Origin: Jatrophihabitans telluris
GTDB taxonomy: Bacteria > Actinomycetota > Actinomycetes > Mycobacteriales > Jatrophihabitantaceae
Assembly (NCBI RefSeq): GCF_023516435.1
Contig: NZ_CP097332.1
Coordinates: forward strand, 744,001-808,000
DNA: 64,000 bases
Direction: 5' to 3'
This document shows, one piece after another, positions 235-53,879 of the stretch (position 1 is the stretch's first letter; each line of letters opens with the position of its first letter). The notes beneath the pieces are model-generated. The model saw only the letters and a program-made list of their open reading frames with translations, made no database searches and was not told the DNA's origin. Both the position numbers and the translations under genes were made by a program.

Positions 235-735
235 ATGGCCGACATCACCGCATTGATCATGGATGACCACGAATGGTTCCGAAGGCAGTTCGCGCGCCTG
301 GACGACGCGAACGGGGTGGCGGAGCTGACCGCGATCTGGCAGCCGCTGGCCCAGCGCCTGGATACGCATGCCGAGGCGGAGGAGACGATCTTCTACCCGA
401 GCCTGCTGCGCAAGGGCGATGACGCGCAGGAGGAGACCGACGACGCCGTCCGCGACCACAACAAGATCCGGGACGCCGTTGCCGAGGCCGGGAAGCATCC
501 GGTCGGCAGCGATGCCTGGTTCGAGGCGGTAGGTCACGCCCGCACCGAGAACACCGACCATCTGGGTGAGGAAGAGGACGAGGGACTGCCCGATTTTCGC
601 AAGCACGCCAGTGCGCAACTGCGCGACGAGCTCGCCCATCGCTGGCTGGCCTTCTACGCCGAACACCCCGCCGGACGCGGCATTTCCGGCGACGATGTCG
701 ATCCCGAGAAGTACTTGGAGGACAGCAGCCCCTGA
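235..735 (+). CDS. Hemerythrin HHE cation-binding domain protein
   Basis: A 166-residue soluble protein. The ATG at 235 is chosen because the four-helix hemerythrin domain starts right there ([12 protein letters not shown]). Candidate di-iron ligands lie in the expected order: His12, His45 and Glu49 in DTHAEAEE, His75 in VRDHNKIRD, and His109 with Glu113 in [11 protein letters not shown] proteins bind a non-heme di-iron centre and in actinobacteria are linked to oxygen, NO or peroxide sensing and stress. It is transcribed divergently from the CoA-transferase gene. The exact ligand of this protein is not known. Confidence 0.85.
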
Positions 736-904
736 GACGGGCGCACTCGTCGGACGACGGCAACCTCGCAGCGATTCCGCCCTGTTGCCCGTCCTCGATG
801 ATCGCTAGGTTGAAGTGGCTAGATTCGGAGTGGGCAAGCAGAGGCCCCCCTTTTTCCCGCTGGACGGATCCGTCCGCGGGTGACTTTCGGCGAAGGAGTT
901 GCAG

Positions 905-1255
905 ATGAGCGACGACGAAGTACAGGTCGGCGGCACCGAGGGCCCAGCTGACGGTGGCGCGGACGGCGTCCCCGGTACCAGCGATGGCGGTGCCGACGGC
1001 GGCGCTGACGGTGGTGCCGATGGTGGTGCTGACAGCGGCGCCGCCAGCGGCTCCGGTGGTGGTTCCGACCACGGCGCCGAAGGTCCCGCCGACGGCGGCG
1101 CCGACGGTGGTGCCGATACCGGTGCCAACACCCACGACGGCGGTGCCGACGGCTCGGCCGACAGTGGTGCTGAAGGTCCCGCTGACGGCGGCGCTGACGG
1201 TGGTGCCGACTCCGGTGCCAACACCCACGACGGCGGGGCCGACGGCGGCGCCTGA
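905..1255 (+). CDS. Gly-Ala-Asp repeat peptide, possible substrate of the adjacent JmjC oxygenase
   Basis: A 116-residue protein of extreme composition, starting MSDDEVQVGGTEGPADGGAD. Ten residues in, it becomes repeats of GGAD/SGAD with longer units: EGPADGGADG occurs three times, and GANTHDGGADG occurs twice near the C-terminus. It lacks a signal peptide and hydrophobic segments. The start is firm because GGAG lies six bases before ATG 905. It is followed after 36 bases by the JmjC gene, in the same direction. I do not recognise a named family. The regular Asp, Asn and His residues beside a family known to hydroxylate Asn, His and Asp suggest a modified peptide or protein substrate (inference). 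Antisense open frames here are a by-product of the GC-rich repeats. Confidence 0.7.
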   Translation: MSDDEVQVGGTEGPADGGADGVPGTSDGGADGGADGGADGGADSGAASGSGGGSDHGAEGPADGGADGGADTGANTHDGGADGSADSGAEGPADGGADGGADSGANTHDGGADGGA

Positions 1256-1291
1256 GCGCTCGATGACCCGAACTGCTGCCAGGACTGCGCA

Positions 1292-2575
1292 GTGAACAAC
1301 GAAACCGGGGCTCCGGCCCGGCTCACCCAGCCGGGCCGGAGCTCTGCGCTGCGGCGTTGCATCGCCATCGGCACGGACGAGTTCGCTCACGAATACTGGG
1401 GTAAACGCCCGCTGCTCACCCGCGCCCGCGAGCTCGATTCGGGATCGCGAACGGCGCCCGAGGACCTGCTGTCCATCGCTGCGGTCGATGAGCTGATCTC
1501 TCGTCGCGGCCTGCGGACCCCCTTTGCCCGTATGGCCAAACAGGGCACCGTCCTGCCGGCGGCACGTTTCACGCGCGCCGGTGGCTCCGGCGCGAGCATC
1601 GCCGACCAGCTCGCCGACGACAAGGTGCTCGCCCAACTGGCCGACGGTTCCACGCTGGTACTTCAGGCCTTGCACCGGACGTGGCCCCCGCTGATCGAGT
1701 TCGGCAGCGAACTGGCCGCTGAGCTGGGGCATCCGATCCAGATCAACTCCTACATCACCCCGCCGCAGAACCAGGGTTTTGCGGCTCACTACGACACCCA
1801 CGACGTGTTCGTCCTGCAAGTGAGTGGACGCAAGCGCTGGATCATCCACGAGCCGGTGCTGCGCAATCCCCTACCCGAGCAGACCTGGGAGCAACGCAAG
1901 GACGAGGTCGCCGCGCGCGCGAAGCAAGCCCCCACCCTCGACGTCGTCCTCGAGCCCGGCGACGTGCTCTACCTTCCGCGTGGGTACTTGCACGCGGCCA
2001 GCGCTCTCGGCGAGCTGTCGATCCACCTCACGGTCGGCATCCACACCCTCAACCGGTACACCCTGATCCGGGAACTGCTGGCCTCGGCCGCGTCCGATCC
2101 TGCGTTGCGTGATTCCCTGCCGATGGGCGTGGATCTGTCGGACGAGTCCGTGCTGGCGCCCCTGCTGGCCGACGCCGCCCGCGCGCTGGCCGAGATCGCC
2201 GACCGCCCGGACGAGGCCCGGGTGGCGGCCGTGGCGGACCGGGTCGGAACGGAACTCTCGCGCAGCACCCGCCCCGCCCCGATCGCACCACTGGCCCAGG
2301 CGGCCGCCCTGGCCACGCTGACGGCAGACACCAGTGTCCGCCTGAGACCCTTCCTACGCGTGTCGGTCCGTGCGAGCTCCGGGCAGGTGAACCTACGGAT
2401 GCTCGACACCAGGCTGAGCCTGCCCGCCGAGCAGGAACCCGCCCTGAAACTCGCCTTGTCCGGCGCGGTTTTCACCCCTGCGGATCTGCCTGAGCTCGAT
2501 CCGGTCGCCCAGGTAGAACTCGTCCGCCGGTTGCTCACTCATGCGGTGGTCGTACCGGCCGACCCCGGTGACTGA
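1292..2575 (+). CDS. JmjC/cupin-domain Fe(II)/2-oxoglutarate oxygenase, ROX (ribosomal oxygenase)-like
   Basis: A 427-residue protein from a GTG start. The N-terminal half carries the JmjC barrel seen in the ROX group (YcfD, MINA53, NO66): FAHEYWGKRPLL near 31-42, then the metal triad His166-x-Asp168 in AAHYDTHDVFVLQ and distal His234 in YLPRGYLHAA. GRKRWIIHEP follows the HxD as in YcfD. The C-terminal half is helical and winged-helix-like, as in ROX proteins. Relatives hydroxylate Arg or His of ribosomal proteins, and FIH-type relatives hydroxylate Asn, Asp or His of repeat proteins. It sits between a Gly-Ala-Asp repeat peptide and a ferredoxin-like gene, which suggests a dedicated substrate and redox partner rather than ribosome modification (inference). 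Confidence 0.85.
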   Translation: MNNETGAPARLTQPGRSSALRRCIAIGTDEFAHEYWGKRPLLTRARELDSGSRTAPEDLLSIAAVDELISRRGLRTPFARMAKQGTVLPAARFTRAGGSGASIADQLADDKVLAQLADGSTLVLQALHRTWPPLIEFGSELAAELGHPIQINSYITPPQNQGFAAHYDTHDVFVLQVSGRKRWIIHEPVLRNPLPEQTWEQRKDEVAARAKQAPTLDVVLEPGDVLYLPRGYLHAASALGELSIHLTVGIHTLNRYTLIRELLASAASDPALRDSLPMGVDLSDESVLAPLLADAARALAEIADRPDEARVAAVADRVGTELSRSTRPAPIAPLAQAAALATLTADTSVRLRPFLRVSVRASSGQVNLRMLDTRLSLPAEQEPALKLALSGAVFTPADLPELDPVAQVELVRRLLTHAVVVPADPGD

Positions 2576-3632
2576 CGCGCCGCTACCCGACGAGGCGGCC
2601 GGGGTCTGCGAGCCCGCCCGGCCCGGCCCTACGCCCAGCTCCGGCTCTGGCCCCGCTTCCCTCACTGGTTCCGGTCGCGGTTCTGGTCGCGGCCTCGACC
2701 GCTGCGGACTGCGCGCCCGAGTGCGGGGCGACGACATGCTGGGAACGGCTTTCCCGGCGGCCAGGGTGCTGCTGATCGAACAGCCCGGTGGATGGGGCCC
2801 CGACGGTTTGGTGGATTCCGGTTTCGATCTCGCCATCGCCAAGCGTTTGATTTCCGGCCTGTCCCGTATAGGCATTCGGGTCCAGACGATCCGCCGTCCG
2901 GGTCGAGCGCCGAGCGCCGCGGCCGACCGAGGTGGGCGGCGGTGGGCGTTCGTGGACGTGCGGCCGGGTCATGCCGGGATGGTCTGGGGGGAGTACCGAT
3001 CCGATTCCGACCTGCTGACCCTCGATCCTGACGAGGCACTGCGCACCGCGGTCGGCGCGGGCACCGATGAGCGCGGCAGCCACTTCTTCGTATGCGCCCA
3101 CGGACGTCATGACGTGTGTTGTGCGATCGAGGGCCGCCCGGTCGCCGCCGCACTGCAGGACATCCGACCAGGGAAGGTCTGGGAGTGCAGCCATCTGGGC
3201 GGCGATCGGTTCGCCGCCAACGTTCTGGTTCTCCCGCTGGGCGTCGTCTACGGCCTCGTGCCCGCGTCCGGAGTCGAGGATCTCGCCGCGGCCAGTGATC
3301 GGTCCGAGCTCCTGCTGCCCTGGCTGCGGGGACGGATCGGCACGGTATCCGTGGCACAGGCCGCGCTCGCGATGGCGCACCGCGAGCTGGGTTATCGCAG
3401 CGTGCACGACCTGCGGGTGCTCGACCACTTCCGCCTGGACAGTGAGAAGGACGGTGCCCGTACCGCTCTGGGCGGCTCGGATCCGATGTTCGGTGTCCGG
3501 ATCGCGACCCCGGAGGGCGACGTCCTGGTCACCGTGCAGGTCAGCACCGCGCCCGCCGAGGTGCTCACCTGTCGAGCCGTCCGACCGAGCCGGGCGGCCC
3601 TGTTGCGGCCCCGGCGTCTGGAGCGTCTGTAG
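2568..3632 (+). CDS. Sucrase/ferredoxin-like family protein (thioredoxin-fold 2Fe-2S)
   Basis: A 354-residue protein of the Suc_Fer-like family (PF06999). The family hallmarks are visible: RCGLRARVRGDDMLGTAFPA then ARVLLIEQPGGWG near the N-terminus, the cysteine-rich FFVCAHGRHDVCCAIEGRP, and VWECSHLGGDRFAANVLVLP. The Cys set is the presumed thioredoxin-like [2Fe-2S] site. GTG 2568 overlaps the JmjC stop by eight bases and preserves the family N-terminus; an ATG at 2541 in the same frame is possible, and ATG 2736 would delete conserved residues. Close coupling to the JmjC gene suggests it supplies electrons or keeps the iron centre reduced (inference). Confidence 0.8.
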   Translation: MTDAPLPDEAAGVCEPARPGPTPSSGSGPASLTGSGRGSGRGLDRCGLRARVRGDDMLGTAFPAARVLLIEQPGGWGPDGLVDSGFDLAIAKRLISGLSRIGIRVQTIRRPGRAPSAAADRGGRRWAFVDVRPGHAGMVWGEYRSDSDLLTLDPDEALRTAVGAGTDERGSHFFVCAHGRHDVCCAIEGRPVAAALQDIRPGKVWECSHLGGDRFAANVLVLPLGVVYGLVPASGVEDLAAASDRSELLLPWLRGRIGTVSVAQAALAMAHRELGYRSVHDLRVLDHFRLDSEKDGARTALGGSDPMFGVRIATPEGDVLVTVQVSTAPAEVLTCRAVRPSRAALLRPRRLERL

Positions 3633-3713
3633 GCGGGTACGTTCGTAGGCAAGCCGTGCACCGGGCAGAATCCCCGCCCGAGGTGCTGGCGCACGCAGTG
3701 AAGGACGCCAACC

Positions 3714-4160
3714 ATGACCCAGTCGGACCTCCCCGACCGATCCGCAGGGACCTACGAGCCCGCCGGGACCTACGACCCCGCCGGGGCCTACGAGCCGAGC
3801 ATGCCGCCGGCGCCCGTCGAGGGCACCGAACCGCAGGACCCGGAGGCTTTTCGCCCGGCTCGTCCGGCGCCGGGATTCAACGACAAGGGACACGTCAAGC
3901 GGACCAGGATCAGCGGCGTCTGGATCGGCCTGATCGGAACCGCGCTGTTCCTCATCCTGCTGCTCATCTTCATCGCCCAGAACTCGCGGTCGGTGCCGGT
4001 GCATTTCCTCGGCTGGCAAGGGCATTTCTCACTTGCGCTGGCCATCATCGCCTCAGCCGTGATCGGGATCCTGCTCGTGGCCATCCCCGGCTCGATCCGG
4101 ATCGTGCAGTTGCGCCGCGCCCTGCGCAAGAACGTCCCGGACGGAAGGGTGTCCGGCTAG
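3714..4160 (+). CDS. LapA-domain (DUF1049) membrane protein
   Basis: A 148-residue protein with a disordered N-terminus that contains a short internal repeat (TYEPAGTYDPAGAYEP, about residues 14-28). It is followed by two membrane spans at about 66-88 and 105-127. QNSRSVPVHFLGWQG between them is the LapA/DUF1049 signature. The C-terminal tail is basic (RRALRKN). GAAGGA lies well placed before ATG 3714. LapA-like proteins are linked to envelope assembly; the role in actinobacteria is unknown. Confidence 0.8.
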   Translation: MTQSDLPDRSAGTYEPAGTYDPAGAYEPSMPPAPVEGTEPQDPEAFRPARPAPGFNDKGHVKRTRISGVWIGLIGTALFLILLLIFIAQNSRSVPVHFLGWQGHFSLALAIIASAVIGILLVAIPGSIRIVQLRRALRKNVPDGRVSG

Positions 4161-4202
4161 CGGGTTGTCGCCGGTTCACGGCGGCACGTTAGGGTCCGCG
4201 GT

Positions 4203-4952
4203 GTGCCGTTTATGCCGGACTTTCCGTTGCTCGTACTCGCGGGCATCGGCGGCGGACTCACCGGCAGCATCGCGGGATTGGCGTCCCTCGTCAGCTATCC
4301 GGCGCTTCTCGCCGCCGGCTTGTCGCCGGTGGCGGCCAACGTCACCAATACGGTTGCCCTGATCTTCAACACCGTGGGTTCGGTGTCTGCCTCCCGGCCG
4401 GAGTTGACCGGCCAGCGGCCGCGCCTGCTGCGGCTCGGGGTGTCCGCGGTCCTCGGCGGTGCGGTGGGGGCGGTTCTGCTGCTGGTGACCCCGGCCGGCT
4501 CGTTCGAGCGGGTGGTGCCCGTCCTGATCCTGTTCGCATCGGCCGCCGTGCTGATTCCTCGCCCGGCGGCGCATCCGGACCGGCTGCGAACCGACCCGAT
4601 CTGGTTGGCTCCGGTCGTGTTCGCCGTCGGCATCTACGGTGGCTACTTCGGTGCGGCGGCCGGGGTGTTGCTGCTCGCCAGCCTGCTGCTGGCCACCCCC
4701 GAATCCCTCCCGCAGGCCAACGCCATGAAGTCGGCACTGCTCGGCACCGCCAACGCCGTCGCCGCGGTCGGCTTCGTCTTCTTCGGCCACGTCGTGTGGA
4801 GTGCCGCGTTACCGCTGGCGATCGGGCTGTTCATAGGGGGCAGCCTCGGACCGCGGATCGTACGTCGCAGCCCGCCGACGCCGTTGCGGCTGGTGATCTC
4901 GTTCGCCGGTGTCGGATTGGCTGTGAAGCTCGGACTGAACGCCTATACCTGA
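4203..4952 (+). CDS. TauE/SafE family sulfite or anion exporter-like permease
   Basis: A 249-residue integral membrane protein with about seven or eight hydrophobic spans. It has the TauE/SafE pattern: GGLTGSIAGLASLVSYPALL at the N-terminus and GIYGGYFGAAAGVLLLASLL near the middle, both halves of the internal duplication. The family moves sulfite, sulfonates or other anions. Start may be GTG 4203 or ATG 4212; no strong ribosome site separates them. It converges with the acyl-CoA synthetase downstream. The substrate cannot be read from the sequence. Confidence 0.85.
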   Translation: MPFMPDFPLLVLAGIGGGLTGSIAGLASLVSYPALLAAGLSPVAANVTNTVALIFNTVGSVSASRPELTGQRPRLLRLGVSAVLGGAVGAVLLLVTPAGSFERVVPVLILFASAAVLIPRPAAHPDRLRTDPIWLAPVVFAVGIYGGYFGAAAGVLLLASLLLATPESLPQANAMKSALLGTANAVAAVGFVFFGHVVWSAALPLAIGLFIGGSLGPRIVRRSPPTPLRLVISFAGVGLAVKLGLNAYT

Positions 4953-6583: not shown

Positions 6584-6907
6584 CCGTTGAGGTTGCCCTT
6601 GTTGTGGGGTGTGTTGCGTTGAGGTTGCCCTTGTTGTGGGGTGTGGTGCGTTGAGGTTGCCCTTGTTGTGGGGTGTGGTGCGTTGAGGTTGCCCTTGTTG
6701 TGGATCGCTGTTCGCCAGATGTGGCGAATTCGACCCGGACAAGGTTCCGGATGCGCGCAACGAGGGCAACCTCAACGGGATGGTGCGCGCAAGGAGGGCA
6801 ACCTCAACGGGATGATGCGCGCAAGGAGGGCAACCTCAACGGGATGGTGCGCGCAACGAGGGCAACCTCAACGGGCCGGATGCGCGCAACGAGGGCAACC
6901 TCAACGG
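6584..6907. repeat. Inverted repeat array 1 of an interspersed 32-bp intergenic repeat family (9 copies)
   Basis: Four copies in orientation A (core CGTTGAGGTTGCCCTTGTTG) start at 6585, 6617, 6649 and 6681, exactly 32 bases apart. After a 57-base centre, five copies in orientation B (core AACGAGGGCAACCTCAACG, some with AAGG) start at about 6758, 6790, 6822, 6854 and 6887, 32-33 apart. The linkers are nearly identical within a block (GTGGGGTGTG in A; GGATGGTGCGCG in B) but differ between arrays. Every core contains GAGG-GCAA-CCTC, a small stem with a GNRA-type loop in RNA, and A plus B can pair as a long hairpin. The last B copy contains the stop codon of the MFS gene. Confidence 0.95.
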
Positions 6908-8220
6908 GGGAGTTGGGAGTCGACCGGCCGGCCCGCTGCGGCGGCCAGTCCACCGACGCCCGACACGATCAGCGCCGCCAACAGGATCACGAATACGTAG
7001 TCCCAGTTCTGGTGGAACCGGTCGAGCAGGAAGCCGACGAGCAACGGCCCCGTGCCGGCGACGACGTAGCCCACCGTCTGCACGAAGGCCGACAGCGCGG
7101 CCGTGACCGGGACCGCCCGGGACCGCAGCCCGATGAACGTCAGCGTGAGCGGGAACATCCCGCTGCCGATTCCGGCCAGGCACATCCACAACCACGAACC
7201 GCCCAGGGGCGCCAGCCAGAGGCCGATGTACGCCACCGCCGAACAGGTGACCATGCCGAGCACAGCCGATCGCGCGTCCCGGACCGCCCACGCCGGAATG
7301 ATCACCGAGATCGGTATCGACAGTGCCGCGTAGAACGCCACCAGCCAACCGGCATGCGCGGGGCTCAACCCCTCGTGCTTGAAGAACGCCGCGAACCATC
7401 CGATCGACACGTAGGCCTGCATCGACTGAAAGGCGAACATGATCGTCAGCGCCCACGCCGTCGAGCTTCGCGCGAGCCGGGGCAGCGGAATCCGAATCGC
7501 GTCGGCGTCTCGATCGGGTCGGTCGCCCCGCACCGTCGGCAGCCAGGGCACCAGTGCGGCCGCAGCGAAGATGGTCCAGAACCCGAGGCCGAAACGCCAG
7601 CTACCGGCGGCGTTCGCCAGCGGGACGGACAGCCCGGCCGCGGCCGTCATGCCGATCGCGAGAGCGGTCGTGTAGGCGGCGGTCATTCGCCCGACCTCGT
7701 CGGGGAAGTGCTGTTTCACCAACGACGGCATAAGCACGTTGGCCATCGCGGCGCCGGCGAGCGCGAGCACGCTCAACAGCAGGAACGGCACGTAGCCGGG
7801 CGCGATCGCTCGGCTGGCCATCCCGAGGGTCGCGATCGCGAGCGCCGCCACGACGAGCCGATGCGTACCGAAGCGATGGGCCCAGCGCGGTGCCCACGAC
7901 CCCAGCACCGCAAAGCAGAGCACCGGCAGGGTCGTGATCACGCCGGCTCGACCGGAGGAGATCGACAGGCCGTCCTGGATCCCGGTCAGCAGCGATCCGA
8001 CACTGCTGACCGCTGACCGCATGGTGAAACCGGTCAGCACGAATGCGGCAATGAGCAGTAACCGCTGGTGATTCGGCCCGGCGGGGACGGGACCAACCGA
8101 AACGCGCCCCGCGGAGACGGGACCAGCCGAAACGCGCCCGGCGGGGACGGGACCAGCCGAGACAGCCGAGACAGCCGAACCGGCGCCCGGCGCTGCGTTG
8201 CGGTTGGTGGCACGCACCAT
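6901..8220 (-). CDS. MFS transporter, CynX/NimT-like
   Basis: A 439-residue, 12-span major facilitator protein (RLLLIAAFVLTGFTMRSAVSSVG starts the first span). ATG 8220 is preferred because it overlaps the stop of the upstream aldo/keto reductase by one base (TGATG), indicating translational coupling. A longer frame extends into that gene but is only its shadow. Residues 15-48 are a low-complexity SAGPVPAGRV-type repeat encoded by near-identical 20-30 base units. The stop codon at 6901-6903 lies inside a copy of the intergenic repeat. The family exports cyanate, nitroimidazole or other small molecules; the substrate here is unknown. Confidence 0.85.
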   Translation of the reverse strand: MVRATNRNAAPGAGSAVSAVSAGPVPAGRVSAGPVSAGRVSVGPVPAGPNHQRLLLIAAFVLTGFTMRSAVSSVGSLLTGIQDGLSISSGRAGVITTLPVLCFAVLGSWAPRWAHRFGTHRLVVAALAIATLGMASRAIAPGYVPFLLLSVLALAGAAMANVLMPSLVKQHFPDEVGRMTAAYTTALAIGMTAAAGLSVPLANAAGSWRFGLGFWTIFAAAALVPWLPTVRGDRPDRDADAIRIPLPRLARSSTAWALTIMFAFQSMQAYVSIGWFAAFFKHEGLSPAHAGWLVAFYAALSIPISVIIPAWAVRDARSAVLGMVTCSAVAYIGLWLAPLGGSWLWMCLAGIGSGMFPLTLTFIGLRSRAVPVTAALSAFVQTVGYVVAGTGPLLVGFLLDRFHQNWDYVFVILLAALIVSGVGGLAAAAGRPVDSQLPR

Positions 8221-25780: not shown

Positions 25781-25922
25781 CGTTGAGGTTGCCCTTGTTG
25801 CACGCAACGAGGGCAACCTCAACGGGTCAGACGCAGCAACGAGGGCAACCTCAACGGGTCGGACGCACGCAACGAGGGCAACCTCAACGGGTCGGACGCA
25901 GCAACGAGGGCAACCTCAACGG
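25781..25922. repeat. Inverted repeat array 2 of the 32-bp intergenic family (5 copies)
   Basis: One A-orientation core (25781-25800, CGTTGAGGTTGCCCTTGTTG) faces four B-orientation cores (starting 25805, 25837, 25870 and 25902) with period 32-33. The first A and B pair forms a 44-base hairpin with a CACG centre. Linkers read GGTCGGACGCAG and do not match array 1. The array ends two bases before the stop codon (TCA at 25924) of the XPB helicase gene, in the same arrangement as arrays 1 and 3. Confidence 0.95.
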
Positions 25923-52484: not shown

Positions 52485-53863
<1,379 letters not shown>

Positions 53864-53879
53864 CTCTGGTGTGATGGCT

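Follow-up and report, generated by a model that had tools for sequence, protein, structure and literature searches.

The window considered in this study is a stretch of 64,000 nucleotides from Jatrophihabitans telluris (contig NZ_CP097332.1, positions 744,001 to 808,000). Near its beginning, three open reading frames (ORFs) follow one another in the same direction on the + strand; they encode a Gly/Ala/Asp repeat peptide, an oxygenase of the JmjC type and a ferredoxin of the Suc_Fer type, and their principal features are collected in Table 1. The peptide is composed of the units EGPADGGADG, DGGADGG and GANTHDGGADG, and a gap of 36 nt separates its stop codon from the GTG start codon of the JmjC gene. 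A preliminary description of this DNA had reported a repeat peptide with three copies of EGPADGGADG and two of GANTHDGGADG, a JmjC protein of the ribosomal oxygenase (ROX) type with the motif His166-x-Asp168...His234, and a common orientation of the three genes; all of these were recovered here. The overlap of eight bases that it gave for the JmjC and Suc_Fer genes holds if the latter starts at GTG 2568, and becomes 35 nt with the ATG at 2541 that appears in the mechanical ORF list, so that the Suc_Fer start is ambiguous. The source genome is a single contig of 4.19 Mb with one match to PF08007.

Table 1. Features of the peptide, JmjC and Suc_Fer genes; positions are those of the window
Feature	Position	Strand	Basis or remark
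Shine-Dalgarno-like AAGGAG	893-898	+	6 nt 5′ of the peptide ATG; read in the sequence
Precursor-like peptide, 116 aa, 21 Asp	905-1255 (ATG 905, stop 1253-1255)	+	Kept upstream of JmjC in relatives
Putative leader MSDDEV, degenerate family form	905-922	+	Alignment A2
JmjC (PF08007) 2-oxoglutarate/Fe(II) oxygenase, predicted NO66/ROX fold, 427 aa	1292-2575, GTG start	+	Pfam, AlphaFold, Foldseek
Iron ligands His166 and Asp168 (HYD)	1787-1795	+	Invariant in 41 rows of alignment A3
Lys181 (GRKRW)	1832-1834	+	Invariant in 41 rows of A3; aligned with GRKLW of NO66
Third iron ligand, His234	1991-1993	+	Invariant in 41 rows of A3
Predicted C-terminal domain, residues ~358-416	2363-2539	+	AlphaFold model
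Suc_Fer (PF06999) thioredoxin-like [2Fe-2S] ferredoxin	2568-3632, GTG start	+	Pfam; CX8C intact, with Asp in place of the fourth-position His

The genome of J. telluris and those of 60 relatives were searched with the JmjC protein, and 38 of the 61 gave a match. An ORF with DGGAD-type repeats was situated just upstream of the JmjC gene, on the same strand, in all 30 of the loci retrieved, that of J. telluris included; at one of them (L013) the last 20 residues of the peptide are visible before the contig ends. The same arrangement was observed in 79 of 80 loci from named genomes, which were the best 80 of 562 and are therefore biased to close relatives, with some overlap with the first 30. Seventy-four of these peptides were seen at first pass and five on closer inspection (L055, L064, the partly masked L083, L100, with a 12-residue tail at the contig edge, and L106); at the 80th locus, L076, the contig ends 124 nt upstream of the JmjC gene. 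The preliminary description had made its inference dependent on a neighbourhood conserved in other genomes, and that inference withstood the check. The distance from the peptide to the JmjC match had a median of 46 nt and ranged from -22 to 471 nt (L070) across 101 GGAD-type entries, a set that holds duplicates (the same contigs in two collections) and in which some of the automatic starts are evidently misplaced, either too early or too late.

A separate profile for the peptide (A2) allowed the two genes to be scored independently in 397 genomes at the level of the order. The JmjC profile (A1) matched 250 of these at an E value of 1e-3, of which 220 were classed as strong and 30 as weak at a split of 1e-100, and A2 was positive in 185. 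It is apparent that the peptide accompanies the strong matches: 184 of the positives have a strong JmjC, none has a weak one, and one (G402) has no JmjC match, its peptide lying 120 nt from the end of the contig and pointing off it (Fisher p 1e-74, uncorrected for relatedness). Among the 36 genomes with a strong JmjC and no A2 match, 29 (7+22) do hold a GGAD-type peptide, with its units in an order that the profile missed, and five, from family f9, carry a different Asp-repeat peptide in the same position (of which the G084 contig has the tail only); the last two (G391 and G395) lay outside the inspected set. The pairing of peptide and JmjC gene is thus beyond chance.

The pairing extends across the phylum. 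At an E value of 1e-20 the JmjC was found in 62 of 396 genomes from a phylum-wide scan, and 19 of 20 loci hand-chosen from these carry an Asp-rich repeat precursor, two of them of the GGAD type. Genera with the pair include Micromonospora, Salinispora, Actinoplanes, Geodermatophilus, Kribbella, Rhodococcus and Curtobacterium. No DGGAD repeat was found at 18 distant JmjC loci, some of which have other short ORFs upstream. In family f14, the distant PF08007 loci L213-L217 show short upstream ORFs (~1150-1340, oriented) of the form ...QDRxE...SDGxxGDGxDGQGH or ...GGGDGHGDQGGDGLNIPE, which are perhaps another JmjC-linked precursor family. A scan of genome contigs recovered relatives with an alignment as query and none with a single sequence, and the JmjC matches in a plasmid collection, from 166 records, were weaker and in no case covered 80% of the query.

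The peptide is conserved at the level of its amino acids. The ratio of non-synonymous to synonymous divergence (pN/pS) was 0.00-0.10 in 10 of 11 equal-length ortholog pairs from other species and 0.30 in the remaining one, an Actinoplanes pair, at a synonymous divergence (pS) of 0.08-0.49; two further pairs, which differed in length, were left out. These values are indicative of purifying selection on the peptide codons, with the reservation that gene conversion is possible among repeats. A chance ORF was rejected on account of the low pN/pS and the co-occurrence with JmjC. A degenerate DGGADG pattern gave 15 matches in the whole J. telluris genome, eight of them within the peptide ORF, and its reversed control gave one. 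A Shine-Dalgarno-like stretch precedes 86 of the 101 automatically chosen peptide starts. The peptide has no Pfam family at E values up to 1 and no NCBIfam family above cut-off, and Asp-rich MSCRAMM repeats match it no better than at E values of 0.049-0.65; none of the other peptides tried gave a match above cut-off in either database. By eye, no hydrophobic signal sequence was seen in the peptide.

A scan of window positions 700-4300 for promoters and terminators found nothing. Sites resembling those of sigma-B/H (GGTT-N-GGGTA) were present in 27 of 74 upstream regions (e.g. those of L041, L050 and L091), versus 0.5 in shuffles and five on the reverse strand, and lie 57-101 nt 5′ of the peptide start; the region upstream of the window peptide contains no such match. 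Twenty-three of the 27 belong to the Micromonosporaceae, where the sites hint at stress control. An Actinoplanes locus has two GGAD-type frames, the second (L061:2404-2652) lying some 2 kb further upstream, and four Kribbella peptides (L043, L062, L070 and L111) are long and share the C-terminus NSGSW.

Alignment A2 revealed a short leader in the GGAD-type peptides, M-x-[LI]-[ND]-D-D-D-[IM]-x-[TS], which is followed by units of the type E-G-x-A-D-G-G-A ... D-G-G-A-D-G-x-A. A strict regular expression for this leader matches 77 of the 101 entries, and the motif is present in 22 of 23 tabulated precursors, hand-picked to comprise four of the GGAD type and 19 of other repeat types. The cores, in contrast with the leader, vary from lineage to lineage. 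Those of family f9 consist of GGDADQSD/DPAGVDPAG repeats and those of genera g55 and g83 (4/4 loci) of DADxxDAD-like repeats, in both cases behind a leader LRDEDI, LRDEDM or LRDDDM; elsewhere in the phylum the repeats read DGDATDGTDGDA, DADAADAD, DTTDTDTT, DGTDQGVxGGTYGPRDA or DGDATDGTD. The combination of a conserved leader with a variable core, as expected of a ribosomally synthesized and post-translationally modified peptide (RiPP), is therefore seen in this family.

Asp is constant throughout this variation, amounting to 12.5-37.8% of the core in each of the 23 precursors. The core of L014 is about 95% Gly, Ala and Asp, and His, Asn, Pro, Lys and Arg are all absent from it. If a single residue is the target throughout, Asp would be the only good candidate, because it alone, among plausible targets, occurs in all 23 precursors.

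The JmjC protein matches PF08007 with 102.5 bits (cut-off 22) and Cupin_8 with 43.4 bits (cut-off 27.4). Its active site is intact, and none of the residues His166, Asp168, Lys181 and His234 varies across the 41 aligned sequences; Lys181 we take, from the alignment with NO66, to be the probable ligand of the 2-oxoglutarate C5-carboxylate. An AlphaFold model was obtained with a mean predicted local distance difference test (pLDDT) score of 91.3. In a Foldseek search of the PDB with this model, the top 21 matches were NO66 chains, with template modelling (TM) scores of 0.67-0.71 by query length at about 20% identity, followed by MINA53, YcfD-like enzymes and YxbC; the PF08007 catalytic domain with its HxD...H motif is accordingly contained in a full predicted ROX fold. 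The C-terminal part of the model has strands at 358-362, 365-369 and 374-378, with one short strand before them, a helix at 379-388, a three-residue helical turn at 396-398 and a helix at 404-416. A beta3-alpha3 order is required for RiPP recognition elements (RREs) according to PMC12710340, and the predicted order is compatible with it, the middle helix having three residues only. No Pfam match was found for this domain in three members, and PqqD was not among the families listed for the 41 members.

A tree was constructed from 66 of 73 loci, the other seven being dropped for a best segment shorter than 200 aa. All 29 GGAD-type enzymes form one clade (100/100), to which the f9 enzymes are sister (98/94); enzymes with other Asp repeats surround these two and do not form one group. 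The root is arbitrary, several deep forks are weak, some branches are long, and the group labels were assigned by us.

The Suc_Fer protein scores 56.5 bits against PF06999 (cut-off 34.9). The best two Foldseek matches of its model are Aquifex thioredoxin-like ferredoxins, which it resembles locally, at weak E values of 0.02-0.03, with a probability of 1.00 and TM scores of 0.62-0.65 by target length; family match and modelled fold both point to a Suc_Fer-type thioredoxin-like ferredoxin. The related Apd1/Aim32 ferredoxins possess a motif CX8CXnHX3H (PMC8482512). The CX8C element and the first His are likewise invariant in 27 Suc_Fer rows (alignment A4), but the second His is replaced by Asp in 23 rows and by Cys in four, so that the bis-His cluster was found in none of them; this suggests an unusual set of [2Fe-2S] ligands. 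A Suc_Fer gene was found within 1.2 kb downstream of JmjC in 44 of the 80 named loci and in 22 of 32 genus-level labels (taken from titles). No Micromonosporaceae locus in this set of 80 yielded one. The ferredoxin is accordingly accessory and not obligatory, and the local trio proposed in the preliminary description gives way to a two-gene system that is phylum-wide and has lineage-specific repeats.

When ORFs of at least 90 aa around the 80 loci were clustered, only JmjC and Suc_Fer recurred broadly; the other wide clusters are, by position, frames antisense to or overlapping these genes. In the window, a gene for a hemerythrin-domain protein (235-732) precedes that of the peptide and could not be recognised among the most widespread gene clusters surrounding the 80 loci. 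A LapA-domain membrane protein (3714-4157) has an N-terminal repeat of the YEPAGTYDPAG type (18-bp tandem repeat, 3742-3796). A 32-bp tandem repeat (GCAACGAGGGCAACCTCAACGGG...) forms four arrays in the window (6585-6703, 6752-6908, 25804-25922 and 53681-53871), one of them reversed, and is a dispersed minisatellite family.

The interpretation that we regard as probable is that of a RiPP-like two-gene system, distributed across the phylum, whose JmjC enzyme would recognise the precursor by its leader and introduce beta-hydroxyl groups into the repeated Asp residues. The product of the small gene would be this precursor, its leader acidic and very short, its core made up of Asp-rich repeats. The enzyme would bind the leader, perhaps through its C-terminal winged-helix or RRE-like domain, and, with O2, 2-oxoglutarate and Fe(II), hydroxylate the repeated core Asp, most likely at C-beta. 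The product would be a multiply hydroxylated, acidic, flexible and metal-chelating peptide, probably intracellular because no signal sequence was seen by eye and no conserved exporter or protease lies nearby. Where present, Suc_Fer might supply electrons that keep the iron ferrous or reload the enzyme. That the peptide is a dedicated substrate of the JmjC protein, as had been proposed earlier, is strongly supported by adjacency, co-occurrence, purifying selection and the agreement of enzyme clade with repeat type. The position of a precursor gene beside a candidate modifying enzyme, also expected of a RiPP system, is seen at the level of gene neighbourhood only.

Several observations weigh against this interpretation. 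The strict leader expression misses 24 of the 101 GGAD-type entries, some of them through a wrong automatic start, and the leader of the window peptide itself is degenerate, being the sole miss among the 23 tabulated precursors. Gly and Ala, like Asp, are abundant in many cores. The phylum-scan locus L238 has no Asp-repeat peptide, and 19 enzymes for which none was seen form two groups among the Asp-repeat enzymes of the tree, in addition to a long stray branch; as these enzymes are nested there, the precursor would have been lost, replaced or missed in them. Suc_Fer was not found in 36 of the 80 loci, four of which have less than 1.2 kb after JmjC. Finally, no conserved protease or exporter occurs within about 5 kb among the clustered ORFs of these loci, which leaves maturation past the JmjC step unexplained.

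An enzyme acting on the peptide need not have hydroxylated Asp as its outcome. It might instead bring about desaturation, a cross-link, backbone cleavage, or a hydroxylation that promotes succinimide or isoAsp formation at Asp-Gly steps, and 14 of the 21 Asp residues of the window peptide do have Gly next. Other alpha-ketoglutarate-dependent RiPP enzymes are described as performing backbone cleavage (PMC12636437) and macrocyclisation (reference 45 of PMC12710340). The predicted fold is, however, nearest to hydroxylases, and in several other lineages the residue after Asp is mostly Ala, Ser or Thr rather than Gly; we consider such an outcome unlikely.

Many GGAD units have the form x-H-D-G-G, and a peptide-dedicated enzyme could target the His and/or Asn of N-x-H-D-G-G, in the manner of NO66 and MINA53, which hydroxylate His in Rpl8 and Rpl27a (PMC9994133), or by FIH-like hydroxylation of Asn. 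However, in the last 60 residues of the 101 GGAD-type entries His is absent from 27, Asn from 61 and both from 16, and in 12 of the 19 tabulated precursors with non-GGAD repeats the core is devoid of both. Asn or His as the target is distinctly unlikely on this evidence, and Asp is the likelier residue.

It is very improbable that the JmjC protein is a ROX preceded by a peptide ORF that is regulatory or has nothing to do with it. The fold and PF08007 membership are those of a ROX, but the peptide co-occurs phyletically with JmjC, the GGAD enzymes are a single clade, the peptide is kept at the amino-acid level despite many synonymous changes, and the JmjC is patchily distributed (the 250 of 397 and 62 of 396 genomes given above); a regulatory ORF was rejected on the grounds of purifying selection on codons and the co-occurrence. 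Equally improbable is a peptide that serves JmjC as a partner, such as an iron carrier or chaperone, since a conserved leader with repeats that change in number and sequence is typical of precursors and not of folded partners, even though Asp-rich peptides can bind metal.

FIH and other Asp/Asn beta-hydroxylases apply 2-oxoglutarate/Fe chemistry to repeated protein motifs. The JmjC protein studied here is a distant match to the FIH-type fold (TM 0.27-0.35 by query length). With NO66, MINA53 and YcfD it shares the whole-chain fold, the HxD...H motif and the conserved Lys; their substrates are ribosomal proteins, whereas the likely substrate in the present case is the repeat peptide to which the gene is linked.

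Among RiPPs, the JmjC-domain/cupin enzyme BipG hydroxylates Orn in a biphenomycin-type pathway, as do PbsQ and BpmG (PMC12707348, PMC12257519). In common with the present loci, a JmjC-domain or cupin enzyme is encoded with the precursor there, and it hydroxylates one core residue after translation. As outlined in those reports, however, biphenomycin-type clusters contain a multinuclear non-haem iron-dependent oxidative enzyme (MNIO), a B12 radical S-adenosylmethionine (SAM) enzyme, an arginase and a TldD protease, and have an aromatic/Arg core; genes for these four enzymes did not recur broadly around the 80 Asp-repeat loci, which are therefore not of this type. PF08007 JmjC proteins with RRE-like folds, and bacterial homologs (~30% identity) in 'RiPP-like genomic contexts', are mentioned in PMC12710340. 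They resemble the enzymes studied here in Pfam family, context and predicted RRE-compatible C-terminal topology, but the mention consists of one sentence, and neither Asp-repeat precursors nor a leader motif or an enzyme subfamily are dealt with in section 6 of that paper. In the literature searched, outside which most subscription papers lie, no description of the Asp-repeat peptide/JmjC pair was found; the motif string DGGADGG had no match, and shorter strings occurred only in papers that are unrelated, judged by title. JmjC hydroxylases in RiPPs are thus already known from BipG, and as far as the search extends this Asp-repeat precursor family is new. By analogy, the system looks like a RiPP system and may work like one.

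An unannotated class of ribosomal peptides spread over the phylum, with lineage-rewritten repeats but a constant Asp and leader, could be matured by one NO66-like JmjC enzyme into poly-beta-hydroxyaspartate peptides that act as intracellular buffers of metal or redox stress, a tentative proposal that we think has somewhat less in its favour than against it; the 'ribosomal oxygenase' fold would then be, in bacteria, a maker of peptide polymers. Repeated beta-hydroxyaspartate should, on chemical grounds, be a strong metal ligand, so that a role in metal handling is testable, and soon so, as many hosts of the pair are cultured strains. If the two-gene system operates as suggested, it would provide natural substrates that are repetitive, each molecule offering many sites for modification, as well as a leader motif usable for genome mining, and the NO66-type JmjC enzymes would gain a new class of substrate.

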